Shown: positions 2,804 to 22,240 of the stretch, piece after piece
Layout: each line of letters begins with the position of its first letter
Numbering within the stretch: position 1 is the stretch's first letter
IMG/VR virus record: IMGVR_UViG_3300047476_000544
Coordinates: 1-22,240 of that record
Direction: 5' to 3' (one strand)
Source: a virus
Length of the DNA: 22,240 nt
Program-made: the position numbers and the translations under genes
The notes under the pieces: generated by a model
Databases searched by the model: none
What the model was told of the DNA's origin: nothing
What the model saw: the letters and a program-made list of their open reading frames with translations, nothing else

Positions 2804-3026
2804 AATCTTTTAAACCTATCATATCAGTAAGATATGATGACTTATTGTTTATCATTTTCTTAAGTTCACCATCATGAACTTCTGAATATTTTGGTTTTTC
2901 TTCAACAACCTCTGTTTTGGGTTCTTCATGAATATCTTTGAATGATTTTTGAACAATCTTTTCTTGTTTGACGGGAGGGGGCGTTTCCCCTCCCCTCACA
3001 ATAATATTTTTAGCAAAAACGCCCAT
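2802..3026 (-). CDS. small charged hypothetical protein
   Basis: 74 residues with no recognised domain. The N-terminal 15 residues (M-G-V-F-A-K-N-I-I-V-R-G-G-E-T) are followed by a Pro/Lys/Glu-rich linker and a C-terminal region with E-L-K-K-M-I-N-N-K-S. The start overlaps the stop of the 700-residue gene in a TAATG junction, so it is coupled to it. I cannot name a function; as part of the late block it is probably a virion or assembly protein. Confidence 0.55.
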   Translation of the reverse strand: MGVFAKNIIVRGGETPPPVKQEKIVQKSFKDIHEEPKTEVVEEKPKYSEVHDGELKKMINNKSSYLTDMIGLKD

Positions 3027-5128
3027 TAAATCTTTAGACCTTCAGAGCTAGCATGCATTTTGTTTACAGCAGCCTGACGTTCAGCTGGCTTTAGTCCCTG
3101 AAGATGAGAAGTAATCTTTCTTCCCATTGCTGGTGTAATCTTTGACTTCGAACCATCGTTGTGCGGGAAGTCAAGAGTATTACCAGCAGCAGCACGACCA
3201 GCAATTACCTGAATATGCTGACGAGCATCACGTTCAGTTGTTTCTGGCTGTGGATTCTTCTTTGGGCGACCTTCTTCAAGAGTTTCATCAGTAAGATCAA
3301 TGTTCTTAACTGATGGGTTTACGCCCTTTGTAGGTTCTGGTCTACTTGGTGCTACCTGTTCGAAAAAAGAATTGATATGATCAATTTCTGCCTGAGAGAA
3401 TTCTACAGTTTCTTCTTCAGTCATGCCCTGCTTTTGTAGTTTACGACCAAGCACTAGTGCTGAGTGCTGCTTATTTGTTCTTGGATTCCAATCTGGATGA
3501 TCCTGATTGTTCTTACCAAGGCGCATCTGAACTGCTTTACGCTTACGAGCAGAAGAACCCTTTTCGCCCTTACGAGCAGGTTCCCAAAGTTCGTCAACCT
3601 GGGTTTCTTCCTTAACACGTACTGGCTTACCACCCATAGTTACTTCGCCTGAACCCTGATAAGATGGATCGCCATCAACCTTCTTAGGAGCCTTAGCTGG
3701 CTTTTCTGGGGTTGATGAAACATCGCTACCACCCTGAACTGAAGGATCCTTTGGGTCCATCATGGTTCCCTCAGTAGCTGCTACTTTAGGTCCACGTATC
3801 TTTGCTTTAGCTAAAGTGATACCTTCGATACGCTTTCTATCTCTTTTTTCATCATTCTGATATTGGGCAATTCTTGCATCATGTTGTGCTTTTGGAACAT
3901 ATTTTTTTAAGAGTTCCTTAGAGACTTCGTCAAGATTTTCTTCTTCCATTTTACCAGCAGCCTTAGCAGCCTTAAAACGTGATCCCCAAACTTCATCCTT
4001 TGATGATTCTACTTTACCATCGCCGTCATAATCTTTCTTGGCTTTCTTTGCTGCTTCAAACATATTAGCAGCCTTTGTTTCCTGAAGCTTTAGGAAAGCT
4101 GCGATTAGTGGGTTTGTTTCTTCTGACATTTTTTTCTTCTTTCCTCCGCTTTCGGATTCTTCTGGATTACCTGGTTTGTTATTTGGATTACCATACCATC
4201 TAGCGTTAGATGGCCCTTGGTCTTCTGGACCAGTTAATTTAGTTGGACCCATAGTAGAAGTATCTACAGGTTTTAATGTATCGCTATTAGTTGAAGTGGT
4301 ATTAGAGGTGCTGGTTTTTGGTTCTGGAGCAGATTTAGTAGAATAAGAACGTTCAACATTGTCTCCGCCCTTCCATTTAAATTCACTAGCGCCAGCAGCC
4401 TTTTGGGCAGCAAATGTATCTCTGAAACTTTTAGCAGAACTGCTATCTTTTTGATAAATTGCATATTTGTTTTTATCAAGAGCAACAGGTTTGTCAGATG
4501 CAGCCGCTGGCTTTGTTTCATTAGATTTGTTGGTGTCTGTTTTTGTAACTGCTGTTGTTGCAGGCGCAGGAGTAGGTTTTGGTGTATTGTCTCCTGATGT
4601 CGAAGAAGCAGTATTAAATTTAGAATCTTTATATAAATTCTGATATCCAGCTTTTAACGAATCACCAACACCAGGAACTTTACCTAGATAATCAGCAACT
4701 TTTTCTCTACCACTAACCATTGCTTGTGCTGCTGGCTGTGCTCCTGGTAATTTACCAACCCATTTACCGACAGCCCTACCAGTTTCAGTGCCAGTTGCTA
4801 ATTCTTTGGCTCCTTGAGAAGCAGCTGCACCAAATCCAGCGCCAATTGCAGCAGGAGCAACAATATTTTTTGCTATACTCTTAATACCTTTACCAGGAGT
4901 AAAAAATGGTTCTTTTGGTGTTGAGGATTTAGGAGTTGCTTTGGATGTTGATGTTTCTGGCGCAAGTTTAATATCAGGTATTGGACCTCCTGGCTTGCTT
5001 GTGTCAAGCTGCGGTTTTTTTCTAAAACCTCCAGAAGGATCTTTTTCAAAAGGCGGAGAAACCGCTTCGTTAACATTACGTTGAACTTCGGCAAGAGCTT
5101 CCTGAATTGTTTTTGGTTTATCTGTCAT
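3026..5128 (-). CDS. large modular low-complexity late protein, candidate internal head protein
   Basis: 700 residues. The first half is rich in Lys, Pro, Ser, Thr and Ala with an Ala/Gly hydrophobic patch (about 88-108) and long S/T/P linkers (about 55-75 and 180-215). The second half is a string of short charged modules divided by acidic linkers such as E-E-N-L-D-E (about 396-401), E-E-T-Q-V-D-E and T-E-E-E-T. Residues 366-375 (K-D-Y-D-G-D-G-K-V-E-S region) resemble a calcium-binding loop. The N-terminus contains I8-Q-E10 and L12-A-E14, possible prohead-protease sites. AGGAAAC precedes the ATG and a late box lies 25 bases upstream. Function unknown; basic composition and position suggest a packaged virion protein. 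Confidence 0.65.
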   Translation of the reverse strand: MTDKPKTIQEALAEVQRNVNEAVSPPFEKDPSGGFRKKPQLDTSKPGGPIPDIKLAPETSTSKATPKSSTPKEPFFTPGKGIKSIAKNIVAPAAIGAGFGAAASQGAKELATGTETGRAVGKWVGKLPGAQPAAQAMVSGREKVADYLGKVPGVGDSLKAGYQNLYKDSKFNTASSTSGDNTPKPTPAPATTAVTKTDTNKSNETKPAAASDKPVALDKNKYAIYQKDSSSAKSFRDTFAAQKAAGASEFKWKGGDNVERSYSTKSAPEPKTSTSNTTSTNSDTLKPVDTSTMGPTKLTGPEDQGPSNARWYGNPNNKPGNPEESESGGKKKKMSEETNPLIAAFLKLQETKAANMFEAAKKAKKDYDGDGKVESSKDEVWGSRFKAAKAAGKMEEENLDEVSKELLKKYVPKAQHDARIAQYQNDEKRDRKRIEGITLAKAKIRGPKVAATEGTMMDPKDPSVQGGSDVSSTPEKPAKAPKKVDGDPSYQGSGEVTMGGKPVRVKEETQVDELWEPARKGEKGSSARKRKAVQMRLGKNNQDHPDWNPRTNKQHSALVLGRKLQKQGMTEEETVEFSQAEIDHINSFFEQVAPSRPEPTKGVNPSVKNIDLTDETLEEGRPKKNPQPETTERDARQHIQVIAGRAAAGNTLDFPHNDGSKSKITPAMGRKITSHLQGLKPAERQAAVNKMHASSEGLKI

Positions 5129-5152
5129 TTTAGTTTCCTGTTAGATTTTAGT

Positions 5153-5160
5153 TATTTATT
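5153..5160 (-). promoter_or_regulatory. T4-type late promoter box (AATAAATA)
   Basis: Minus-strand AATAAATA placed between the stop of the 451-residue gene (5164) and the ATG at 5128, 25 bases before the start. Same spacing and base change as the box at 2796-2803. Confidence 0.55.
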
Positions 5161-5163
5161 GTA

Positions 5164-6489
5164 TTAATCTTTTGGAATCTTTTCGCCACTATCAACGTCC
5201 AAATCTACTCTTCTTTGATCTGGATTTATGAGTAGTATGTCTTTTCCGTAATCAAAAACCTTAGTATTACCGCTTTCGAAACTGCTTTGTTTCTTAGCAG
5301 CAATTTGTTTCTTAGCTTCATCAATTACGTTTTTAATAGTTGCCAATCTAGATGTTTTCTGTTTAATAGATTTAGGATCAGAATCTTTTCTACCAACATA
5401 CTCAATTGATTTACGATCGCCCTTACGTGGCATATTTTCAATTTCTTCTCTAGATTTTGTATCTTCATGCATTCTATGTTTCATGGCTTTATGAACTTTA
5501 GTTTTAACAGGAACACCATGCATTGCATCATAAGCTGAATTATGACCTACTCCTGAAATACCAGGAAAAGAAAACTTTTTCTTTTCGTTATCTTTTGTGT
5601 CTGTCGCAGTATCAGTAGCAGCCTTTGTAGCTGCAGCAGTTTGCGTAGCAGGAGCAACATCAGTTTTTGATTGAGCTCCAGTATCTACTGCAGTTGCTGT
5701 TGCAGGAGCTACTGCAGTTTGTGTGGCAGCAGCGGGTTTGGCTGGCACCGCCATCGGAGCAGGAAGTTCGGTAGGTTTAGTTTTAGGTAATTCTTTTGTA
5801 ATTTCTGCTGCCTTTGGTGTAGGAGCAGATGGCTCAGCAACTTTAGTTGGTGGAGCAGTTGTTGGTTCTTCTTTTTTCTTTTTCTCTGGTTCTGTTGAAA
5901 CTTCGATAGGTTTATCGATGACAGGAGCAGAAACAGATTTCATAATTTTCATACGTTCAGCAGAAGTTTTGAACGAATCGTTTTGTTTTGCTGCTTCCGG
6001 ATCATAAGAACTTGAACCAGTCATTTTCTTTAATAGTTTTGAACCATAATAACCAGCCATTCCAGCTGCAGCTGCAGCGCCTGTTGCTATAGCAGGACCA
6101 GCATATGGCGCTAAAGCAGCAATTGCTGGTGCGATTTCATCAATATGTTCTTCTTCAGTAACCTTACCATGCATAGTCATGCTACCCTTTTCTTTTGCAA
6201 GGGTGCGCTGACGAGAAGCGTTTTCTGGAGCCTGTGAATGACCATCAGGACCAGCTGGTGGTTTAATGTGTGGAGTTGCTGTTCTTACTGACTTAAACTG
6301 ATTGCCTTGATAATCATCAGTTCCAATAGAGCCGACAGCTTCTTCAACTGGCTTGCCATCTTTTGCGCCAAAAGAAGATTCTGATTCGCCCTTCATTACT
6401 TTTCTGATAGAACCCTCAAGGGATTTCTTGCCACCCTTTTCGGCTTTACCTTCGCGAATTTCTCTGATGATGTGCTCTAAACTTTTCAT
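5164..6489 (-). CDS. Ala/Pro/Thr-rich late protein, candidate internal head protein
   Basis: 441 residues from the ATG at 6489. A longer frame starts at 6522 but lies 31 bases inside the Dps-like gene; the internal ATG has AAAGG seven bases upstream and falls 2 bases after the Dps stop, so I prefer it. The N-terminus (M-K-S-L-E-H-I-I-R-E-I-R-E-G) has I8-R-E10 and I11-R-E13. About residues 110-150 form an Ala/Gly-rich hydrophobic stretch after an E-E-H-I-D-E linker, about 180-310 is a Pro/Ala/Thr/Lys linker region, and the C-terminus is basic then acidic, ending K-I-P-K-D. No known domain. Built like the 700- and 570-residue neighbours, and cotranscribed with the Dps homologue; function unknown. 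Confidence 0.65.
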   Translation of the reverse strand: MKSLEHIIREIREGKAEKGGKKSLEGSIRKVMKGESESSFGAKDGKPVEEAVGSIGTDDYQGNQFKSVRTATPHIKPPAGPDGHSQAPENASRQRTLAKEKGSMTMHGKVTEEEHIDEIAPAIAALAPYAGPAIATGAAAAAGMAGYYGSKLLKKMTGSSSYDPEAAKQNDSFKTSAERMKIMKSVSAPVIDKPIEVSTEPEKKKKEEPTTAPPTKVAEPSAPTPKAAEITKELPKTKPTELPAPMAVPAKPAAATQTAVAPATATAVDTGAQSKTDVAPATQTAAATKAATDTATDTKDNEKKKFSFPGISGVGHNSAYDAMHGVPVKTKVHKAMKHRMHEDTKSREEIENMPRKGDRKSIEYVGRKDSDPKSIKQKTSRLATIKNVIDEAKKQIAAKKQSSFESGNTKVFDYGKDILLINPDQRRVDLDVDSGEKIPKD

Positions 6490-6491
6490 TT

Positions 6492-6938
6492 TTATGCCTT
6501 TATGAAAGAACGAAGCATCCAACCATGTTTCTGGTGGACTGTTAAACGGTCTTGTAGCATATTTGAAACTGCATAATGCTTATGTTTCTCGCACATCTCA
6601 TATGCTTTGGTAAGAGAATCTATTACTCTCTCGTTATCAGCTGCTAACTTACTCATCATAACTAAACCATCAGGAATATTAGTTGCTTCTTCAATAGTAG
6701 TAAGTTCAAGGAATCTTTTCATTGAACCTGGAGAAAATGCATCAAATGTTCTGATTGATTCTGCAATAAGATCAGCTGCTGCATTTACTTCTTCGTAAAG
6801 TCCGCCAAAGAAAGCATGATACTCAGAGAAATGAGGACCAGTAACATTCCAGTGATAATGTTGAGCCTTTACTGCAAACACATAAGTGTCAGCTAATGCT
6901 ACCTTTAAAGTTTCTACTGGTTCAATCTTGCCAATCAT
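6492..6938 (-). CDS. dps: Dps-like ferritin-family protein
   Basis: 148 residues, close to bacterial Dps (about 150-180). Dps forms a 12-subunit shell that oxidises and stores iron, and many members bind DNA. The inter-subunit ferroxidase signature is clear: Y-H29-W-N-V-T-G-P-H-F then H41 and D56-L-I-A-E60, matching E. coli H51, H63, D78 and E82. The position of E. coli D67 is Gly45, so one iron ligand seems missing. The N-terminus is short with no lysine-rich DNA-binding tail. GGAGGAG precedes the ATG, which overlaps the stop of the 570-residue gene (TAATG). Lying between two candidate internal head proteins, it may act on DNA or iron during infection or be packaged. Family firm; role inferred. 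Confidence 0.9.
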   Translation of the reverse strand: MIGKIEPVETLKVALADTYVFAVKAQHYHWNVTGPHFSEYHAFFGGLYEEVNAAADLIAESIRTFDAFSPGSMKRFLELTTIEEATNIPDGLVMMSKLAADNERVIDSLTKAYEMCEKHKHYAVSNMLQDRLTVHQKHGWMLRSFIKA

Positions 6939-8650
6939 TATTCATCTCCTCCGCCTTTGTTGATTTGATTTTCACCTAAACCAACTGCTGCCATTTGTCT
7001 GGCTTTATTGCGTGCCATACGAGCTTCTCTGGCTTCAGGAGTTTCATCCTTTGGCCCAGGAACTTTCATATTTTTAATTACGTCTTTAACTTTTGCTCTT
7101 TGTTCAGGAGTTGCATCTGCATCTCTTTTTCCTAAAGTAAAAGATCTACGTTGTGGCGCTGTGCTCCAAACTTCATCAATCTGTTTTGCTTCACGTTCTT
7201 TCTGTTTGCGTTCTGCCCACTTTTGTGTCTCTGTCTTACCATCTTTATCTTTTGGACCCTGAAAGAATTTCTTCTTTTTTTCACCAGGCCAATTTTGATA
7301 ACCTTGGACCTTTTTGGTTTCATCAACCTGAGTTTCTTCGCAATTCCATGCACGTCTTGACCAATAGTTAGCAGAAGTTTTATCTGTTAGATTACCTTGA
7401 CCGCCTGATCTTGCACAATATGACTTCTTACGGGCAGGAATATGCTTCTTAATAGAAAGATTCTTATCTCCAAAGTTTACCTTCTGAGCCTTGCCATCAC
7501 CATCTGGATCAACGAACACTTTTGATTTCTTAACATCGCCCTTCATTGGCTTATTCAAAGGAACTGTTTTGCCCTTATAGGTTGCTTCATCAACAACATC
7601 TTCTTGCATCTTTTTATTTTTTAGATACTGATATGCTTGTCCTGCCTTATCAGCGGCATAAGCAGTCCAACCTTTTGTACCAGGTAGTGTAGAAGCTGCA
7701 GCTACAACATCTTTCATAGGATTACCTACGCCTTGTTGTGCTCTTGAAGCAACGTCACCAGCTGTATATAAATTTGCAACCGTCATACCTGTTGCTACTG
7801 CTTTTTTAATTTTCGAACCAGCTGGTTTCTTATCTTCAGTAGATTCTTTTACTATTCTCTTGATAATCTGACCTGGAGTCTGCTGCTTGTAAATGTCTGT
7901 CAATTCATCGCTCCCTATAAATCTGGATGACGGTTTTGTGAAATCTTTTGAATGCTTCTCAGCGTTTTCTTCTAAACCAGCTTTTGATAATTTTTTATAA
8001 TAGTCTGGTCTTTCGCTGACATGAGCCTTAGCGATACGCTCTGCTGTTTTTTGATCTTTTGTATGTTCTTTTTCTACAGAAGCGCCTGACTTAATTGCTT
8101 TTTTGACATCAGACATAGATTTATCGAATTTATCTGATATTTTATCTACTGAAGGAAGAGGAGCGTTTAATTTGGCCTCTTTTACTGGTACGCAATTAGG
8201 AACGGATTTTCCTTTTTTAGTTTTCATACCAATCTGCTTATAACCTGTCCAACATGGATCAGCATCTTCGTTCTGCGAAGCTTTTAATGCTGCATCAGTT
8301 GGTGCGCCTTCAGAACCTGGCTTGCGCATACGTTCTCCGGATCCAGCTTTAATTCTTGCACGTTTTGCATGGATATTATCCCACAAACCACGTTTTTCGT
8401 TTAATAAATCTTCGTCTAACATTTCAGCAAAACCTCCAGCAATGAATGAATTTACACGATCGAATGCAAATGAATCTGGAGTTCCACCAAAGGATTCATT
8501 CCAGGTTGAATGACCTCTACGATATACTTCTTCAAGAATATCGATTGAATAGCCTGAATTTTGGGATTTTTTGTATAGAGATAATTTGGCCTTGTCAGTG
8601 AGTACGACAGACTCGCCTAGCTGAGTTTCAAATGTAGTAAAATTCTTCAT
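6938..8650 (-). CDS. large basic modular late protein, candidate internal head protein
   Basis: 570 residues, strongly basic. The N-terminus has L11-G-E13-S (possible prohead-protease site). Residues about 24-75 (S-L-Y-K-K-S, Y-S-I-D-I-L-E-E-V-Y-R-R-G) and 88-126 (G-L-W-D-N-I-H-A-K-R, G-S-G-E-R-M-R-K-P-G) are modules I recognise from marine T4-like phage proteins. So are C133-W-T-G-Y-K-Q to V-P-N-C153-V-P, and 400-437 (I-P-A-R-K-K-S-Y-C412-A-R to W-N-C437). Acidic linkers Q-V-D-E and Q-I-D-E separate modules. The paired cysteines could bind metal but this is not shown. The start follows a TATAAATA box by 66 bases, with AAGGGA upstream of the ATG. Function unknown; packaging with DNA is a hypothesis. 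Confidence 0.65.
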   Translation of the reverse strand: MKNFTTFETQLGESVVLTDKAKLSLYKKSQNSGYSIDILEEVYRRGHSTWNESFGGTPDSFAFDRVNSFIAGGFAEMLDEDLLNEKRGLWDNIHAKRARIKAGSGERMRKPGSEGAPTDAALKASQNEDADPCWTGYKQIGMKTKKGKSVPNCVPVKEAKLNAPLPSVDKISDKFDKSMSDVKKAIKSGASVEKEHTKDQKTAERIAKAHVSERPDYYKKLSKAGLEENAEKHSKDFTKPSSRFIGSDELTDIYKQQTPGQIIKRIVKESTEDKKPAGSKIKKAVATGMTVANLYTAGDVASRAQQGVGNPMKDVVAAASTLPGTKGWTAYAADKAGQAYQYLKNKKMQEDVVDEATYKGKTVPLNKPMKGDVKKSKVFVDPDGDGKAQKVNFGDKNLSIKKHIPARKKSYCARSGGQGNLTDKTSANYWSRRAWNCEETQVDETKKVQGYQNWPGEKKKKFFQGPKDKDGKTETQKWAERKQKEREAKQIDEVWSTAPQRRSFTLGKRDADATPEQRAKVKDVIKNMKVPGPKDETPEAREARMARNKARQMAAVGLGENQINKGGGDE

Positions 8651-8715
8651 TCGGAGTTTCCCTTGGGCTTTCCTAATATATGCGAGTCTGCCGTAGCCTT
8701 ATCGCACTGACGTTG

Positions 8716-8723
8716 TATTTATA
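8716..8723 (-). promoter_or_regulatory. T4-type late promoter (TATAAATA)
   Basis: Perfect minus-strand TATAAATA in the 80-base gap between the 435-residue gene and the 570-residue gene (ATG at 8650). The rest of this gap shows no terminator or small gene. It should start a late transcript covering the 570-residue protein, Dps and the 441-residue protein. Confidence 0.75.
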
Positions 8724-8730
8724 AAATATA

Positions 8731-10038
8731 TTATCTTGAAATTTCTTCCCAGTCCATCGATGCATAAATGTCAGCAGTCGCAAGATCAGAAGCAGCAACC
8801 AATGTTAATTCAAACGGAGAAGAAGTAAGACCATTTCTTTCTAATTGGAACGAAAACAGAGCTTCTTTTAGAATATCAACAGGCGTTGATCCTTGTGCAG
8901 AACCATTAGTCCACCCAGAAGCTAATATTCTGCCTCCTGAAAAACTTGTTCCTGTAATGTTGTATTCTACTGCCGAATCTGTACCAGCAGAAGTCCAAGT
9001 TCCACCAGTGGTTGTTCCAGAAGCCACAACTCGCCAATTATAATTGGCATTATTAGTAATACCCAACAAAGAAATAGCAGTAAGAATGACAATAGCATCT
9101 AGTCTATCTGGTGACGCTTTTAGTCTGATTGAAACAACAGGATAATATGTATTGACTGAAGTTAAATCTCTTGGAGCACCAATTGTTGTACCAACAGCCT
9201 GTTGTAACCCTCTTAATTCATACCCACCTTCAGAAATAACAGAAGTACAAATTTGTTTTAGAATACTAGAACTTGCAGTTGTTCCTGTATTCTTAATTTC
9301 GTATCGACAAGGCAATGAAGCTGAAGTAATATAAGCTGTTGTTACAAGATTCGAATGAAAGAATGTATGACAGTGAATAAATTTACCATCAATAACAAAT
9401 CCCATTCTAACAGCGCCGACGCCAAGCCATTCAATATCCATCCATAAAATTTGAGCTTTTGAGATATCTAGGGTAAGTAAAGAAGGTCCAGCGCCGTCTA
9501 GTTTATCAATGTTCCAATTTGCTTGTGTTACTCTTGTTTCTTGCATAGAACCAGTGACATAAGTTCTTTCAACCAAAGAAAGTGATGTACCATCTAATTC
9601 AAGATAATATCCGTTTTGAGCACCATAATATCCAACACGCTGTCTTAGGTTTGCTTTTGCTGTATTGAAAGAAAAAGTATTCATAATCTGAAGAGATTTG
9701 CCTGGCTGATAGGCAAAAATCTTAGTTGTTTCACGGACAACTTCAGCATCTGCAACTGTTGATACATTAAGATTAACAAGACCTTCATTGGTAGAAAAGG
9801 CGTACGTTCCACCAGCAGTATTTGAAGTAGACCAAAGGTTATTATCACGATATCTGTGAGAGGAATCAAAAAGAGTAAGAGGGGTTGAAACTCTTGCTCT
9901 ACCAAAAGCATCAACTGCTACGCCAGAAGGATTAGCAGCGCCAACCATATTTCCATATTCATCAGCTATCTGAACAACTTCGAATAATGTTTTGTTGTCG
10001 CCTAAAAATTGATGGGTATCTTTACGAAACTGTGCCAT
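8731..10038 (-). CDS. putative virion structural protein (fibre/appendage type)
   Basis: 435 residues. After an N-terminal stretch (F-L-G-D-N-K-T-L-F-E-V) comes N-P-S-G-V-A-V-D-A-F-G-R-A-R-V-S-T-P-L-T-L-F-D-S, a pattern I associate with large structural proteins of T4-like marine phages. The body is beta-rich with alternating Val/Thr/Ser/Gly and repeated short aromatic strands, ending in Y-A-S-M-D-W-E-E-I-S-R. No enzyme motif is visible. AGAGGT lies five bases before the ATG and the gene follows the ligase/nucleotidylyltransferase gene by 2 bases. A tail fibre, whisker or capsid-surface protein are all possible; I cannot choose. Confidence 0.65.
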   Translation of the reverse strand: MAQFRKDTHQFLGDNKTLFEVVQIADEYGNMVGAANPSGVAVDAFGRARVSTPLTLFDSSHRYRDNNLWSTSNTAGGTYAFSTNEGLVNLNVSTVADAEVVRETTKIFAYQPGKSLQIMNTFSFNTAKANLRQRVGYYGAQNGYYLELDGTSLSLVERTYVTGSMQETRVTQANWNIDKLDGAGPSLLTLDISKAQILWMDIEWLGVGAVRMGFVIDGKFIHCHTFFHSNLVTTAYITSASLPCRYEIKNTGTTASSSILKQICTSVISEGGYELRGLQQAVGTTIGAPRDLTSVNTYYPVVSIRLKASPDRLDAIVILTAISLLGITNNANYNWRVVASGTTTGGTWTSAGTDSAVEYNITGTSFSGGRILASGWTNGSAQGSTPVDILKEALFSFQLERNGLTSSPFELTLVAASDLATADIYASMDWEEISR

Positions 10039-10040
10039 AA

Positions 10041-12176
10041 TTAACCTCTGGTTGCATTGTTGTTTTTGCCTCTGTTCTTTATCTTATCGCGAAGAAGAAG
10101 ATCTCCATTAGGATCGGCTTCGTAATAAGGCAGAGACTTATCTCTTGTATTATGTTTTATTGGATCAAAGGCTTTGAATCCCAACAAATCGTGTTTGCTA
10201 TCTTTCATCATTTTTAGAATAGCACCATTTTGTTTATCTGCTGCCAGAGAATTAACACCAAAATACTGTTGTAATGGGTCAACTTGAATTGCTGGATTGC
10301 CAGAGACATCGCCAAAACCACGAACCATTTCTCCACCAGCAACTGTTTCTTCTTTTAGTTTCTTTGGTTTAACAAATTTAGCGAGGCCAGCTTGAACGTC
10401 TTTCATCATTTTAGTTTTATCAGCAGGAGTCATATGAGGCGAAGCCATTGCATGAAATGTTTCTGAATCTCCTGCAACCGCTGCTTTTTTCATAGCAGTT
10501 CCTGATGCGCCTTCGATTCCTTCTGCATCCGGATCTCTGTCGCCTGACGAAGCTAAATTGATGTTATTAAACTTATAATAACCATGCGGTCCTTTAACTC
10601 CATTATACGAATTTAGTAGTTTCTCGTAGCTTGGTAATCTCTCCGGGCCAGCAAAAACAGTAAAGTTTCTGATACCATTATTATACAATTTAGAAGCATG
10701 ATGTAATAAAGATGGCGATTCAGGGCTGGTCATTTCTACATTAGCACCAGGAAAAGATTTCTGGGCGTATGTTAATTTCTGTTCTGGAGTCAAAGGATTA
10801 TCTTTATTATGAGTATGAGTCAATAATATTGAATGAGATGCTCCAATTTTATTGGCATGATCGATAACGCCTTGAACTGCATGTAAATGACCTGCGTGCG
10901 GTGGCTGAGTTCTACCAATAAAGGTAACATGACTATTTTCAGGAGTCTTTAGCGATTCATAAAGAGATTCTTTGATGTTCTGTTTAGCCTGTTGAACCAT
11001 ACCATAAGCAGAGTTATTTCTAGTAAAATCGTCTTGATTTACTAATTTGATTCCACCATCAGTCATATAACCTTCATGATTTGTAGGCTGTCCATTAGGA
11101 AGTTCTACGTGCGAAGGAGCGTTCTTGTTCATAACGCCAACCAGAACGTTCTTGGCTTTCTGGATATGATCGTGAATCTTAAATAACTTATCAAAGTGTT
11201 CTTTATTTCTCATGATCTCATTAACTTTTTCTGAATGAGCCTGAGACTTTTTATCAACAGTTCCTTGAGTTTTATATTTTTCTAAATCTTTTTTGTGTTT
11301 CTGAGTTAGGAAATCAACATAACCTTCTGTTGTTAAAGGTTCGTTAGTTCCTCTTCTGACAACATCATTAGCATAAGCTCTCATGTCCATGTTATGATGT
11401 CCAACAGCATCATATGCTTCTGGTTTCAAACGCTGGTATTCAGTTCTAGCGTTTTCCATATGAGTATTAAATTCTCTTTGCTCGTCGGGAGTATAATTTG
11501 ATGGGTTAACTTGAACATCAGGATTTAAATTAAATACATCAGGATGACTACGAAACTTACCACGCTGTTGTGGTGTAATAGCCGAGGCTCTACCCTTCTT
11601 ATCATAATATGTGTGTAATGCGATACCGACTTTTGATTTATCAATCTGATCTGATTCGCCAGAACCTCTAGGAAATTTATATCTTAGAAGATTACTATGA
11701 AGTACAGAATGACCGTCGCTTCTGCCTGCTTTTTTAAGAACGTCACCTTTATACATTTCTCCTGGTTTCATATCAGGTGGAAGAATTTTATGACCATGAT
11801 CCAACATTGTGTGCATAACTTCCTGTAAACCAGGAGCATGACCATAATGTTTATCTACGTCTTCATGAGTCCATGCAATCTTAGGGTTTTTATTGAACAC
11901 GCCTTTTGTTGCGATACCAATTCTACCGTTTTCATCTTTAAGGAAATGAATAGCTGGAGCGCCATCAATTTTAGTTGAAACGAGTTTAGGGATATTGTTT
12001 TTTCTACCAAGAAGATAATTGTGCATCCTTGTCATAGTATCATGAACTTGCGCCATAGCTTCATGGCCATCAAACGGTAGATGATTAACGTGTTCAGAGT
12101 GAGTTCTTTGCTCAGTTGTCTGTTGAACAGATTTACCAGCTTCTGTTAGATAAGTCTTGAAATCCATTCTCATCAT
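10041..12176 (-). CDS. ligase-like adenylation domain fused to HxGH nucleotidylyltransferase domain
   Basis: 711 residues. The N-terminal half resembles the phage DUF6267-type, nucleic-acid-ligase-like family. K69-I-D-G72 is the lysine-adenylation motif I, followed by A-T-K-G-V-F-N-K-N-P-K (89-99) and Y-K-G-D-V-L (142-147). E368-G and G-I-K377-L-V are placed like motifs IV and V. From about 415 a cytidylyltransferase/NMNAT-like domain starts: F-I-G-R-T-Q-P-P-H427-A-G-H430, later G-A-S-G-T-A-M-K-K (556-564), a relaxed ISGTxxR motif. So two different nucleotidyl-transfer activities are predicted: polynucleotide ligation or protein adenylation, and a second AMP/CMP transfer. The N-terminus (F-K-T-Y-L10-T-E12-A) resembles a capsid targeting sequence. 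AAAGG precedes the TAATG-coupled start; ATGs at codons 2 and 4 are alternatives. Substrates unknown. Confidence 0.75.
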   Translation of the reverse strand: MMRMDFKTYLTEAGKSVQQTTEQRTHSEHVNHLPFDGHEAMAQVHDTMTRMHNYLLGRKNNIPKLVSTKIDGAPAIHFLKDENGRIGIATKGVFNKNPKIAWTHEDVDKHYGHAPGLQEVMHTMLDHGHKILPPDMKPGEMYKGDVLKKAGRSDGHSVLHSNLLRYKFPRGSGESDQIDKSKVGIALHTYYDKKGRASAITPQQRGKFRSHPDVFNLNPDVQVNPSNYTPDEQREFNTHMENARTEYQRLKPEAYDAVGHHNMDMRAYANDVVRRGTNEPLTTEGYVDFLTQKHKKDLEKYKTQGTVDKKSQAHSEKVNEIMRNKEHFDKLFKIHDHIQKAKNVLVGVMNKNAPSHVELPNGQPTNHEGYMTDGGIKLVNQDDFTRNNSAYGMVQQAKQNIKESLYESLKTPENSHVTFIGRTQPPHAGHLHAVQGVIDHANKIGASHSILLTHTHNKDNPLTPEQKLTYAQKSFPGANVEMTSPESPSLLHHASKLYNNGIRNFTVFAGPERLPSYEKLLNSYNGVKGPHGYYKFNNINLASSGDRDPDAEGIEGASGTAMKKAAVAGDSETFHAMASPHMTPADKTKMMKDVQAGLAKFVKPKKLKEETVAGGEMVRGFGDVSGNPAIQVDPLQQYFGVNSLAADKQNGAILKMMKDSKHDLLGFKAFDPIKHNTRDKSLPYYEADPNGDLLLRDKIKNRGKNNNATRG

Positions 12177-13666
12177 TAAAGACCTTTCATTAATGATTTT
12201 TCTTGTGGTGTGTAGAAACTATGTTGTCCATGCTGAGCGTCTGGGTTTAATCCAGGCCTTGGAGCAGTAGCCATTGGAGAATCTGATTGTGGTAATCTTC
12301 CTGAACTTGGACGGTTATAAGGTAATTTTGTTCTTGGTAATGGAGCAGCGGTTGGTTGAACGGCTGTAGTTTTTTTAGGTTGTTTTTTAATTGTAGGAGT
12401 TTTAACAACTGGTGTATTACTTGGTTCCATTGTTTTTTTAACTTGCGCCTTACTAACTGTTACGTTAATAGGCCCAGAAAGAGGATCTTGTCTTGTCGTT
12501 GGTCTAGTATCTAATCCTAAACTAAATGGACCTACTGAAAACGTAGAGGCTCCTCCATGTTTATGACCTTGAAGGCCATTTTTTTCTATGTGGTTTCCCA
12601 AATAATCTGACATATTAAATATATCAGCTTCAGGTTTCTGTCTGTTCGTAGAAGTCAAAAATGTTGGTAATTTATCTTTGTGTAAATTACTGATCGATCT
12701 CAACAAAGATTCTTTTAATTCGTTATGTTCTGGATTTCCAGGTTCGTGATCTAAAACTTGAGCAATTCTACCATGTATGGCGGCGGCCAATTCGTTTTTC
12801 ATTTTAAGATTTTCATCAGATACAGAATCATATATGTATCTTAATTCTGGGTTATCTCTAATATGACTCATTGCTTTTTGAGAAAGATTTCCACCAACAA
12901 CTCTTCCGTTTTCTCTTATTGGAACGTAAGATGGGTTTTTTGAATTATTTTCTTCATCATATTTTTGAAAATAATCTTGTAATTTTTTATGATGGTTTTT
13001 CAAAGAAGATCTCTGATTATTTAAACCATTATCAGCAATTTCTCTTAGTTTATCCCTAAGAGAACTGTTCGATCCGAACAGTCTGCTGTGATGATCATCG
13101 ACAATATCTGCCATGGTATTAACACCAGGAGCATAAATTTTCATGGAGCTTTCTTTACCTTTTGAATATTTCAAAGAAGCTCCAAGATGTTCCAGGAACG
13201 CATGAGCGTAATCTTGATTACCTGTGCCTTGATGACGAATTTTAAAAGCTAAATCTGCTTCAGATGGTTTGCCGGCATAAGCTTCAACTGCAGCTGGACC
13301 GCCAATTCCCATATGTTTAGATTCATCAATACCGTATCCCATATTTCTAACGTGATTTATGATACCACGAGCGGTTTTCTTAGAGTCTTCATGCATACTT
13401 TGCATTTCTGGGTTTTTAAAATGTTCTACTGATGGAGCTAAACCAGGATGATTTTGCCAATCTTTTTTATTATAGGTTCTGTTGTTTAAAAAATCAATTG
13501 CTTTTTCGTGCGCTTCTTCCGGAGAAGCGCCTGAAGATAAATGCTCTCTAGAATGGTTGATATAATCTTTAATAAATTCATTAGTAAAATGTTCATTAGA
13601 ATGACCAGAAAGGGCTGTTTCTTTACCAGAAGCCTCTACTAATAAAAATGAATTAAACCCTAGCAT
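12176..13666 (-). CDS. first late-operon protein, unknown function, possible nuclease-like core
   Basis: 496 residues. The N-terminus M-L-G-F-N-S-F-L-L9-V-E11-A again ends in L-x-E, as in T4 internal proteins. Residues about 110-190 are the most domain-like part: G-I-G-G-P-A-A-V-E, then S-E136-A-D138-L-A-F, about 26 residues later G-A-S-L-K166-Y-S and N-T-M-A-D-I-V-D. An acidic pair before a beta strand and a x-x-K strand recall PD-(D/E)xK nucleases, but the catalytic Glu before Lys is Ser, so this is weak. About 395-480 is a Pro/Thr/Lys linker. GAGGGT lies six bases before the ATG, 38 bases after a late box. It is coupled by TAATG to the ligase/nucleotidylyltransferase gene, so the two may work together. 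Function not recognised. Confidence 0.6.
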   Translation of the reverse strand: MLGFNSFLLVEASGKETALSGHSNEHFTNEFIKDYINHSREHLSSGASPEEAHEKAIDFLNNRTYNKKDWQNHPGLAPSVEHFKNPEMQSMHEDSKKTARGIINHVRNMGYGIDESKHMGIGGPAAVEAYAGKPSEADLAFKIRHQGTGNQDYAHAFLEHLGASLKYSKGKESSMKIYAPGVNTMADIVDDHHSRLFGSNSSLRDKLREIADNGLNNQRSSLKNHHKKLQDYFQKYDEENNSKNPSYVPIRENGRVVGGNLSQKAMSHIRDNPELRYIYDSVSDENLKMKNELAAAIHGRIAQVLDHEPGNPEHNELKESLLRSISNLHKDKLPTFLTSTNRQKPEADIFNMSDYLGNHIEKNGLQGHKHGGASTFSVGPFSLGLDTRPTTRQDPLSGPINVTVSKAQVKKTMEPSNTPVVKTPTIKKQPKKTTAVQPTAAPLPRTKLPYNRPSSGRLPQSDSPMATAPRPGLNPDAQHGQHSFYTPQEKSLMKGL

Positions 13667-13703: not shown

Positions 13704-13711
13704 TATTTATA
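13704..13711 (-). promoter_or_regulatory. T4-type late promoter (TATAAATA)
   Basis: Perfect minus-strand TATAAATA 38 bases before the ATG at 13666, starting six bases after the T-run of the terminator at 13717-13745. This is the probable main late promoter for the whole left block. Confidence 0.8.
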
Positions 13712-13716
13712 AATGC

Positions 13717-13745
13717 AAAAAGGGCAAGCCCTTGCGAGCTTGCCC
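13717..13745 (-). terminator. Rho-independent terminator (minus strand)
   Basis: On the minus strand an 8-bp perfect stem GGGCAAGC/GCTTGCCC with an 8-base loop is followed by five T. It would stop minus-strand transcription just before the late promoter, separating the replication block from the late block. The opposite strand has no T-run, so it should not end plus-strand transcripts. Confidence 0.8.
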
Positions 13746-13786
13746 CGATACCTTTCTGACAAAAATACGGTCTGGCGGAACGTTTA

Positions 13787-13849: not shown

Positions 13850-14353
13850 ATGAATATTTATCACAATCATCACATAATCCCTAAACATATGGGTGGAACA
13901 GACGATTCGTCTAACCTCGTTCGATTAACCCTCGAAGAGCATGCAGCAGCCCATAAAAAATTATGGGAAGAACATGGTAAACACGAAGATTTTTTAGCTT
14001 GGCAAGGTTTAAGTAATCTACTAGACAAAAAACAAATTTTAAAAAGTTTAGGAAAAGAGAAAAAAGGAAAAATATGGGTTACGAATGATATTATTCACAA
14101 ACTCATACACCCAAACGAATTAGAAAAATATCAAAAAATGGGGTTTCGTAAGGGCAGACTTCCGATGTCAGAACAAGGTAAAGCTAATGTAAAGGCAGCT
14201 TCGCCTAAGAAACGTAAACCTTTAACAGAAGAACATAAGAAAAATATAAGCAGGTCTCTAGAGGGAAATATTAACGCAGGTTCAGGACCAAGAAAAAAGA
14301 TATATAAAACTTCATGGTATTCATACGAAAAGTATCTACAAAAAAGAGGGTAG
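13850..14353 (+). CDS. HNH homing endonuclease (free-standing)
   Basis: 167 residues, the only plus-strand gene. The HNH core is at the very N-terminus: N6-H7-H8-I-I-P-K-H-M-G-G, S-S-N22-L-V, then E-E-H31-A-A-A-H. The middle has G-K-I-W-V-T-N...K-M-G-F-R-K-G-R (about 73-104), a module repeated in phage HNH homing enzymes. Next comes K-P-L-T-E-E-H-K-K-N-I-S-R-S-L (about 123-137), a NUMOD3-like DNA-binding motif. The tail is basic. Such enzymes cut DNA lacking the element and spread it by repair. AAGGAG lies seven bases before the ATG. The flanking genes are both intact, so this is an intergenic insert and not part of an intron in them. Its stop codon lies inside the hairpin of a terminator serving the opposite strand. 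Confidence 0.9.
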   Translation: MNIYHNHHIIPKHMGGTDDSSNLVRLTLEEHAAAHKKLWEEHGKHEDFLAWQGLSNLLDKKQILKSLGKEKKGKIWVTNDIIHKLIHPNELEKYQKMGFRKGRLPMSEQGKANVKAASPKKRKPLTEEHKKNISRSLEGNINAGSGPRKKIYKTSWYSYEKYLQKRG

Positions 14354-14473: not shown

Positions 14474-14665
14474 CTACATATTTTTGCTAACATTATTTAG
14501 TAAAAATGAAGGAGTCCAGCCCGAAAAACCACCGCCTAAATTCAAAAATTTCATAACTTTTTTTGCTTCTTCTCGTGTATCAAAGGTTTTAATGATATAA
14601 TCGGTGGCCTGTTCCTTAACACAGAACTTACCATCCTTCTCAACAATCTTATAATCAACCGACAT
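14474..14665 (-). CDS. small conserved hypothetical protein, end of replication operon
   Basis: 63 residues. Pattern Y-K-I-V-E-K-D-G-K-F-C-V-K-E-Q then I-I-K-T-F-D-T-R-E-E-A-K-K-V-M-K-F-L-N, a short beta-beta-alpha unit like small phage proteins of unknown role; the C-terminus is a flexible F-S-G-W-T-P-S-F-L-L tail. AAGGAG lies seven bases before the ATG, which overlaps the Bfd-like gene by 11 bases. It is the last gene before the terminator at 14340-14367. Function unknown. Confidence 0.7.
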   Translation of the reverse strand: MSVDYKIVEKDGKFCVKEQATDYIIKTFDTREEAKKVMKFLNLGGGFSGWTPSFLLNNVSKNM

Positions 14666-14840
14666 CAGTCATCTCCTTGATACACCTGTTAATTTCGTTA
14701 ACAATGAGTTCTTTACAATATGAACATTCTGGAGTCCAGGCCAGCATATTCAGTACTTGTTGGTGATTTGGTTCTGTGGCATAGTTCAGAACTGCTTTAA
14801 TGTCTTTAGTGTCTATGTAATTACAAGAACAGACTATCAA
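14655..14840 (-). CDS. Bfd-like [2Fe-2S] ferredoxin domain protein
   Basis: 61 residues. Cysteines C4-x-C6 and C39-x-x-C42 match the four ligands of bacterioferritin-associated ferredoxin (E. coli Bfd C4, C6, C38, C41), and the length is similar (64). Bfd passes electrons to bacterioferritin to release stored iron; the domain also occurs in assimilatory reductases. The start is TTG directly after the TAA of the 66-residue gene, with AGGGGGAG upstream. No in-frame ATG would keep the first cysteine pair, so TTG is needed. Its place in the replication operon is unexplained; partner could be a host protein or the phage Dps homologue. Domain call fairly sure, role inferred. Confidence 0.8.
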   Translation of the reverse strand: MIVCSCNYIDTKDIKAVLNYATEPNHQQVLNMLAWTPECSYCKELIVNEINRCIKEMTDVG

Positions 14841-20931: not shown

Positions 20932-22240
20932 TTAATCCCTCAGCGGTACTTTGCCATCTAGAAGATCAACAATTTCTTGACCTGATAGAGTTTCATATTC
21001 AAGTAGTCCCTTAGCAAGGGTGTCTAAGTCTTTTCTCTTAGTGGTTAGGATTTTCTTTGCAGTATCATAACCTTCTTCAACTAGACGAAGCACTTCCGAA
21101 TCAATGATCTTCTGTGTATCTTCTGCAATCTTAGGAGCACGGAACATATCAGCATTTGGTTCAGAATATGCCATTCTACCAAGCTTTGGTGAGAAACCAA
21201 GTTGAGTAACCATAGCACGTGCCATCTTAGTTGCTTGTTGAATATCAGCAGCTGCACCAGATGTTACATTTTCCTTACCGAAAACAATTTCCTCAGCAAC
21301 ACGACCACCCATTGCCATTGCTAGATGAGCAATCATTTCCTTATATGACTGAGAAATTTGATCGCGTTCTGGTAGAGATTGAACCATACCCAATGCTCGT
21401 CCACGGGGTATGATGGTTGCCTTATGAATAGGGACAGAGCCTTCCATGTTGAGAGAAACAAGAGCATGCCCACCTTCATGGTATGCAGTCATCTTCTTCT
21501 CTTCATCGGTCATAAGGAGTGTTCTACGTTCTGCTCCCATAAGAATCTTATCGCGAGCATCTTCAAACTCTTTGGCGCATACAATTCTCTTACTGCGGCG
21601 AGCAGCAAGCAGAGCAGCTTCGTTTACTAGATTTGCTAGATCAGCGCCAGAGAAACCAGGAGTTCCCTTTGCTATTGTTCTTAGATCAACATCTGCAGCT
21701 GTAGGAACGCTCTTAGTATGAACCTTCAGGATCTTTTCACGCCCCGTAATGTCCGGATTACCAACAGTAACTTGTCGATCAAAACGGCCAGGACGAAGAA
21801 GAGCAGCATCAAGAATGTCAGCCCTGTTTGTCGCAGCAATGATAATAATACCTTGATTGTCATTAAATCCATCCATTTCAACTAGAAGAGCATTGAGAGT
21901 GTTATCACGCTCATCATTGCTACTCATAGAATTCTGTCGACTCTTACCAACGGCATCAATTTCGTCAATGAAAATAATGCATGGAGAATTCTTCTTGGCT
22001 TGGTCAAACATATCACGAACACGAGATGCACCAACACCAACAAACATTTCTACGAAATCTGAACCTGATAGGTGATAGAATGGAACACCTGCTTCGCCAG
22101 CAACTGCCTTGGCAAGTAGAGTCTTACCAGTTCCTGGAGGTCCAACAAGTAGAACGCCCTTTGGAATTTTACCACCAAGGCGATGAAACTTTTCTGGCGC
22201 CTGTAGAAACTCTACAACTTCCTGTAGGTCTTCCTTTGCT
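20932..22240 (-). CDS. ftsH: FtsH-like AAA+ zinc metalloprotease (5' part beyond the window)
   Basis: 435 residues of the C-terminal part; the frame stays open past the right edge, so the true start lies outside. It has Walker A G33-P-P-G-T-G-K-T40, the pore motif F-V-G-V-G, Walker B C-I-I-F-I-D-E93 and the second-region R-P-G-R-F-D-R. The zinc site H254-E-G-G-H258 is followed by [12 protein letters not shown] with the third ligand Asp. FtsH is a membrane-bound hexamer that unfolds and degrades regulatory and damaged membrane proteins. All catalytic motifs are intact, so it should be active. The sequence around G-K-E-N-V-T-S-G-A and [12 protein letters not shown] fits alphaproteobacterial FtsH as I recall it. 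The N-terminal membrane helices cannot be seen. Likely acquired from a host. Confidence 0.93.

Follow-up and report, generated by a model that had tools for sequence, protein, structure and literature searches.

In phage T4, the internal proteins IPI-IPIII carry an N-terminal leader of 10-19 residues with hydrophobic or aromatic residues at positions 4, 7 and 8 and a Glu at position 10, which is processed by the protease gp21. The leader is the only part that the T4 internal proteins have in common (PMC12373910), and in IPIII residues 4 and 7 serve targeting, while residues 8 and 10 serve processing (PMC9026906). Leaders of the same kind are found in a viral DNA fragment of 22,240 bases (IMG/VR record IMGVR_UViG_3300047476_000544; the whole fragment is called the window), in which two proteins of 711 and 496 residues are predicted, with high confidence, to be head cargo with a T4-type capsid targeting sequence (CTS). 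As in T4, one leader is placed on unrelated basic bodies, expression is assigned to the late stage, and gp21, gp22 and gp23 are encoded alongside in relatives. The T4 internal proteins are small (8-20 kDa), whereas the cargo considered here has 400-700 residues, is enzymatic and modular, belongs to Kyanoviridae-type phages, and its processing is predicted.

Three other systems are comparable in part. The packaged ADP-ribosyltransferase Alt of T4 is likewise a large enzyme found in the head after N-terminal trimming; however, a Pfam search found no ADP-ribosyltransferase domain among the window proteins. The Dar proteins of phage P1 are large injected proteins with an N-terminal head-targeting signal, where residues 1-30 of DarB suffice to target a reporter (PMC9024508), but no leader consensus is common to the Dar proteins and their signals have no sequence relation to the window leader. 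In SPN3US and phiKZ, the prohead protease also cuts head propeptides after Glu, and identical leaders occur on diverged paralogues (PMC5694885); the motif there is A/S-x-E, and the propeptides are mostly longer, often more than 100 residues.

The gene order in the window is gp43, uvsX, gp41 and then the cargo cluster, and the DNA polymerase is ~50% identical to cyanophage gp43; this aquatic phage is assigned to the T4-related group, near Kyanoviridae. The mechanism is known from T4, and its use by Kyanoviridae-type phages, outside the T-even group, for large modular enzyme cargo appears to be undescribed. The literature search found no work applying the T4 signal to cyanophage-type phages (both terms occur in one review) and no paper naming DUF6267, the main domain of the 711-residue protein; the wider literature may differ in both respects.

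Leaders of the 711- and 496-residue proteins

The two genes and their parts are given below, where an arrow in a motif marks the predicted cut, pI is the isoelectric point, and handles such as L001 or G001 denote related phage contigs.

12176..13666, minus strand: 496-residue predicted cargo protein, pI 9.1, body without homologues
13634..13666, minus strand: predicted CTS leader of the 496-residue protein, MLGFNSFLLVE, predicted cut after E11 (gp23 matrix 0.5%; L001 homologue)
10041..12176, minus strand: 711-residue fusion of a predicted CTS, DUF6267, a cytidylyltransferase-like module and a small C-terminal domain
12141..12176, minus strand: predicted CTS leader of the 711-residue protein, MMRMDFKTYLTE, predicted cut after E12 (leaders of L001 and L092, leader logo, AlphaFold2)
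11013..12104, minus strand: DUF6267 domain, residues 25-388 (Pfam PF19782, 1.4e-52)
10350..10955, minus strand: cytidylyltransferase-like module, residues 408-609 (phrog_3041, phrog_395)
10044..10349, minus strand: C-terminal module, residues 610-711 (separate tagged gene in G001/L095)
10956..10970, minus strand: possible internal protease sites IKE403↓S and LYE407↓S at a module junction (from position only; not conserved in other fusions)
10350..10352, minus strand: possible internal protease site LKE609↓E at a module junction (LKE↓E/D/Q in most close relatives)

The original prediction had ascribed a possible CTS ending in (L/I)-x-E to five large late proteins. All five open reading frames (ORFs) and all seven motif positions were found as it had placed them, with the Glu at residues 10-14: LVE↓A at E11 of the 496-residue protein, LTE↓A at E12 of the 711-residue protein, LGE↓S at E13 of a 570-residue protein, IRE↓I and IRE↓G at E10 and E13 of a 441-residue protein, and IQE↓A and LAE↓V at E10 and E14 of a 700-residue protein. 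The start that it had given for T4 IPIII, MKTYQEFIAE↓A, was confirmed in NC_000866. All five proteins are basic (pI 9.1-9.6), unlike gp41, gp43 and UvsX.

The motif (L/I)xE occurs in 7.5% of random internal segments of seven positions, so that five of five has a nominal probability of 2e-6, and it is present in all five proteins versus 2 of the 17 other genes of the window (Fisher 8e-4, with proteins picked after the fact). Within residues 8-14 the loose motif is also found in ~10% of all proteins in complete related genomes, and it was dropped as a test on its own because of this background. Since the motif is common and the five proteins were selected afterwards, a matrix was built from gp23 maturation sites only (23 distinct peptides from related phages, no N-termini). 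The fraction of random internal segments scoring as high was less than 2.5e-5 for the 711-residue protein and 0.005 for the 496-residue protein, followed by 0.027, 0.038 and 0.27 for the proteins of 570, 700 and 441 residues, respectively; T4 IPIII, as the positive control, gave 3.5e-5.

Across the 711-residue protein, the 7.4-kb relative L001 is 86% identical, with the leader MRMDFKTFLVE↓G; the matching leader in L092 is MRIDFKTFLSE. The sequence around E12 varies, but the residue itself is retained in 90% or more of 30 aligned DUF6267 proteins. The AlphaFold2 model of the DUF6267 part (pLDDT 89) consists of a helix at residues 6-13, a disordered linker at residues 14-24 and a globular body.

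In the 30 DUF6267 sequences, K69, D71, E368, G369 and K377 are invariant and G72 is kept in at least 90%, and the domain agrees with the motifs of the KxDG superfamily (motif I, KxDG; motif IV/V, EGxV...K). A Foldseek comparison of the model with the PDB gave ligases and RNA ligases as the best matches, which are weak (E of 0.14 or worse, TM ~0.2), and no sequence match of DUF6267 to ligases was obtained. Because of the invariant residues and the nature of these best weak matches, DUF6267 is probably a KxDG nucleotidyltransferase with a ligase-like fold; the idea that the structure proves it to be a ligase was rejected on account of the weak matches. The original claim that the cargo includes an enzyme fusion is well supported for the 711-residue protein, and its packaging is presumed.

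The other two modules are also found as genes of their own. The cytidylyltransferase-like module is a separate tagged gene in L107 (MQKINFSNFLIE↓S), and the third module is a separate tagged gene in G001/L095, where MLSFKDFFKE↓ETISG aligns with KKLKE↓ETVAGG of the window. Sites of the form (L/I/M/F)xE are few in the 711-residue protein (E12, E119, E403, E407 and E609). Four of them, E12, E403, E407 and E609, fall at the end of the leader and at the two module junctions, which suggests that the protein may be processed as a polyprotein. Protease sites as a general rule in the linkers between DUF6267 and cytidylyltransferase were rejected, as none were found in other fusions.

The body of the 496-residue protein gave no relatives in searches of phages, viral contigs and genome contigs. 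Its equivalent in L001 is the upstream gene of 479 residues, which has the canonical leader MLGFSQYLVE↓A. The two proteins can be aligned at the leader and in the C-terminal ~63 residues (59% identical) but not elsewhere, and their middles are unrelated by BLAST, so that the pair shows the swapped-cargo pattern of the T4 internal proteins. An alignment of homologue N-termini, the check named with the original prediction, therefore favors it for the 711-residue protein and, via L001, for the 496-residue protein; the cut sites of the 441- and 570-residue proteins are not conserved.

The tag in relatives and in virions

Relatives were collected by a viral-contig search with the DUF6267 profile, which gave 66 distinct N-termini. 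A leader ending in (L/I/M/V/F)xE is present in 59 of them, with the Glu mostly at residue 10 and the consensus M-x-x-F-x-x-(Y/F)-(L/I)-x-E. The logo of the 59 sites has M at P10, F at P7, Y/F at P4, L/I at P3, E at P1 and A/Q/S at P1', which matches residues 4, 7, 8 and 10 that matter in T4 IPIII. The site also resembles that of the major capsid protein gp23: in 88 gp23 proteins from T4 and its relatives, the maturation site is mostly F-(L/M)-x-E↓A, typically A-F-L-S-E↓A, the gp23 site in the nearest relatives of the window is QTLTE↓T, and the gp21 homologue of G001 has VEYLSE↓A near its own N-terminus.

The tag is found on about 20 unrelated gene families. With the strict pattern and the Glu at exactly residue 10, 18 of the 610 gene families of the contigs from the DUF6267 search are hit. 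Positions 40 to 200, taken as background, have 0.50 hits on average and never more than 3, so that the excess at residue 10 is ~36-fold. In complete or near-complete genomes the strict hits are few (4 of 279 in S-SCSM1, 3 of 276 in G001). The tagged bodies include HAD-like proteins, cytidylyltransferases, an adenylate kinase (L090) and, in L057, a fusion of a zeta-like kinase with DUF6267. At L101:3643-5430, an ADPrib_exo_Tox domain (PF03496, 5e-16) lies within the cytidylyltransferase gene of the cluster, between the cytidylyltransferase and the C-terminal module, and is possibly an analogue of Alt. The cultured relative Melnitz has MQGFKTFLSE↓A, MLTLINFSKYITE↓D and MKKFSEIIE↓A in the same place, and its gp23 site is SAFLSE↓A. 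An invariable tag on the gene upstream of DUF6267 was also considered and discarded, since the strict pattern is present in 15 of 84 such genes.

Several tagged proteins have been detected in particles. The virions of S-CREM2 contain a SAM lyase/hydrolase, a kinase, a cytidylyltransferase and a Cas9-like protein (PMC10665884), of which the SAM lyase starts with MKDFDSFLEE, the kinase with MKRFDAFLTE and the cytidylyltransferase with MKNFSSFLTE. The NMNAT of S-SCSM1 (MKSFLQFLKE) is a virion protein, as are several of its neighbors in the syntenic cluster, and the cytidylyltransferase of S-SM1, which starts with MKKFSAFLNE, was detected in virions (PMC3037559). As a natural control, the tagless DUF6267-like gp87 of S-CREM2 is absent from the virion protein list. 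The enzyme behind the tagless DUF6267 of S-PM2 was not seen in virions either, which is weak evidence because this older dataset also missed true structural proteins. As the same tag occurs on many unrelated enzymes and several of these were found in purified particles, related marine phages probably inject ready-made enzymes with their DNA.

The Cas9/Csn1-annotated virion protein of S-CREM2 (OR473000, 7704-10313) has a tag-like stretch, LRFASFMAE↓A, which extends to residue 26; a Pfam search with this protein gave no match.

Cyanophage proteome papers have repeatedly met enzymes in virions and left undecided whether they were packaged or contaminants, for which the tag offers a mechanism. As a sequence rule predicting injected proteins, it would allow those of uncultivated phages to be recognized from their sequences, and it would extend the T4 head-delivery signal to an abundant marine virus group and to large enzymes. 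Such cargo could act at the very start of infection, in NAD or nucleotide metabolism, in anti-restriction by SAM lyase or in host modification.

Proposed mechanism and alternative explanations

In the proposed mechanism, the 711- and 496-residue proteins would be made late from a T4-type late promoter, whose element is seen in the window and whose use is presumed. By analogy with T4 IPIII, the first 10-12 residues, as a short helix with hydrophobic or aromatic residues near positions 4, 7 and 8, would dock the cargo in the prohead core. A gp21-type prohead protease, which matures gp23 at sites of this kind, would then cut Y-L-T-E↓A or L-V-E↓A behind the Glu, and the freed protein, as in T4, would remain in the head and enter the next cell with the DNA. 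The cargo from the 711-residue protein would have three parts, namely DUF6267 as a ligase-like nucleotidyltransferase, the cytidylyltransferase-like enzyme and the small third module, and in some relatives each part occurs as a gene with a tag of its own.

A wider version is proposed tentatively and is somewhat less likely than not: a general plug-in cargo system of T4-related marine phages, in which one short tag, removed by the capsid protease, would bring large, exchangeable enzymes to the head for injection, and in which the 711-residue polyprotein is cut at E12, E403/407 and E609 into three injected modules. The cargo list of this version would include ligase-like DUF6267, cytidylyltransferase/NMNAT-like enzymes, ADP-ribosyltransferase, SAM lyase, adenylate kinase, zeta-like kinase, RimK-like ligase and a Cas9-like nuclease.

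Several observations count against head cargo with a cleaved CTS. For the window phage, packaging, cleavage and injection are predicted. The window, being a fragment, is without gp21, gp22 and gp23, and a PF03420 search of it gave no match, which is uninformative for the same reason and because the control gave no hit either; a gp21-type protease, a core protein and gp23 are encoded in the near-complete relative G001 and in Melnitz. The leader of the 496-residue protein is one residue longer and misses the strict pattern. DUF6267 is tagless in 7 of the 66 contigs as well as in S-PM2, Syn9, P-HM1 and S-SM1, so that the leader is an optional, separable element. A search among the contigs, which are fragments, for a link between a tagless DUF6267 and a lack of gp23 gave no hits, and in G007 gp23 is present alongside a tagless DUF6267. 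Position P1' of the tag is often Q, E, K or D, in contrast to the small residue in gp23. In S-CREM2 the enrichment of the strict pattern is only moderate, as it occurs in 4 of the 28 non-structural proteins that were detected and in 2 of the 167 that were not (p = 0.004), and the authors of two proteome papers warn that enzymes may be carry-over.

Alternatively, the leader would act as an uncut docking helix for the prohead core or the portal, which brings the proteins into the particle and to which the Glu simply belongs. T4 leaders with Asp at position 10 are still targeted but no longer processed (PMC9026906), P1' varies among the tags, and the 570-residue protein has retained residues 4 and 7 although it lacks a good site. 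This explanation is nevertheless unlikely, as the P1 Glu and the P3 Leu/Ile are the most conserved positions of the leader and copy the gp23 maturation site. It is very unlikely that the leader directs proteins elsewhere (tail, baseplate, host membrane or degradation) and that detection in virions reflects carry-over or tail association, for which the carry-over raised by the proteome authors and the virion-type 435-residue protein next to the fusion gene could be cited; the leader resembles a head-maturation site known to be used by the prohead protease only, and for T4 IPIII, whose leader is of this type, a location in the head is proven. Chance and composition, with N-terminal helices that are merely rich in L, I and E and five proteins picked after the fact, would account for a loose motif with a background of ~10% and for the score of the 441-residue protein. 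Chance of this kind is hardly credible for the leaders overall, given the peak at residue 10, far above background at the family level, and the few strict hits per genome; it is refuted for the 711-residue protein and is the best reading for the 441-residue protein.

Head cargo with a T4-type CTS is the preferred reading for the 711- and 496-residue proteins. For the other three, a different role is possible, though somewhat less likely than not: the proteins of 570, 441 and 700 residues may be scaffold-like core fillers, which the protease would degrade or trim, instead of injected cargo. Their bodies are basic, of low complexity and fast-diverging, their N-terminal helical elements are conserved, and they lie in the same late cluster; however, they show no enrichment of (L/I)xE (0.86-1.40 per 100 residues), unlike a protein meant for shredding.

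Other proteins of the cluster and operon edges

The remaining genes of the cluster are as follows.

8731..10038, minus strand: 435-residue virion protein (phrog_1645), no tag (low gp23-matrix score)
6938..8650, minus strand: 570-residue basic protein, pI 9.6, with a DUF5661 segment
8612..8650, minus strand: N-terminal leader of the 570-residue protein, MKNFTTFETQLGE (with conserved aromatic residues 4 and 7 and a non-conserved cut site)
6492..6938, minus strand: Dps/ferritin-like protein, no tag (PF00210, 7.8e-25)
5164..6489, minus strand: 441-residue basic low-complexity protein, pI 9.3
6451..6489, minus strand: N-terminus of the 441-residue protein, MKSLEHIIREIRE, with a repeated SLExxIRxV element
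3026..5128, minus strand: 700-residue basic low-complexity protein, pI 9.5
5087..5128, minus strand: N-terminus of the 700-residue protein, MTDKPKTIQEALAE, a conserved leader of a different type

A CTS on all five proteins, as originally proposed, is well supported for two of them, the 711- and 496-residue proteins, by the conserved leader, the many bodies that carry it, the gp23 site and the virion proteomes of relatives, and it is not upheld uniformly for the other three. In relatives of the 570-residue protein, [FY]4 and [FY]7 are kept and (L/I)xE is lost (QLVGES in L001, QLEAKS in L096, QLESAV in L115), and its CTS is uncertain. The 441-residue protein starts at the inner ATG of a 452-residue TTG ORF, with which the relatives agree; its cut site is replaced by IRD in L102 and IRN in L096, its gp23-matrix score equals the background, and its assignment as a CTS protein is not supported. 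The leader of the 700-residue protein, KTIQEALAEV, is kept in close relatives while the body after it varies, and the pattern KT[IM]xEAxxE[VI], including (I/M)xE↓A, extends to Melnitz (KTMSEALSEV) and HTVC008M (KTMAEAYREV). It has no aromatic pair and its matrix value is the 0.038 given above; as a CTS it is plausible, and with this related leader the 700-residue protein probably belongs to the core or is packaged.

The 435-residue virion protein has a 68% identical counterpart in the Puniceispirillum phage HMO-2011; as the genome of that phage is 55 kb, the protein moves between very different phages. Many relatives also have the Dps/ferritin-like gene in their late cluster, where it is located between the 570- and 441-type genes.

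Late expression, as claimed for the five proteins, is supported by the elements ahead of both operons, which lie at matching distances in relatives.

13704..13711, minus strand: T4-type late promoter element TATAAATA, 38 nucleotides upstream of the 496-residue gene
8716..8723, minus strand: T4-type late promoter element TATAAATA, ~70 nucleotides upstream of the 570-residue gene
13721..13746, minus strand: putative hairpin followed by a T run, terminator-like (read from sequence)

The first element recurs in L001, L093, L099, L101, L102, L105 and L107, at -35 to -42 relative to the equivalent tagged gene, and the second sits at -72 to -79 of the 570-type gene in ten relatives. The putative terminator-like hairpin lies just ahead of the late promoter and parts the cargo operon from the helicase side.

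At the edge of the cargo operon, an HNH-type gene (13850-14353) lies on the opposite, plus strand, and L092 and L095 have different HNH-like genes near the equivalent position, which suggests a candidate hot spot for homing endonucleases. An FtsH-like protease (AAA and peptidase M41, E 3e-65) is encoded at 20932-22047, close to the end of the window, and also in L099. A small ORF at 14655-14840, with a weak BFD-like [2Fe-2S] match, is conserved in relatives directly ahead of the cargo operon.

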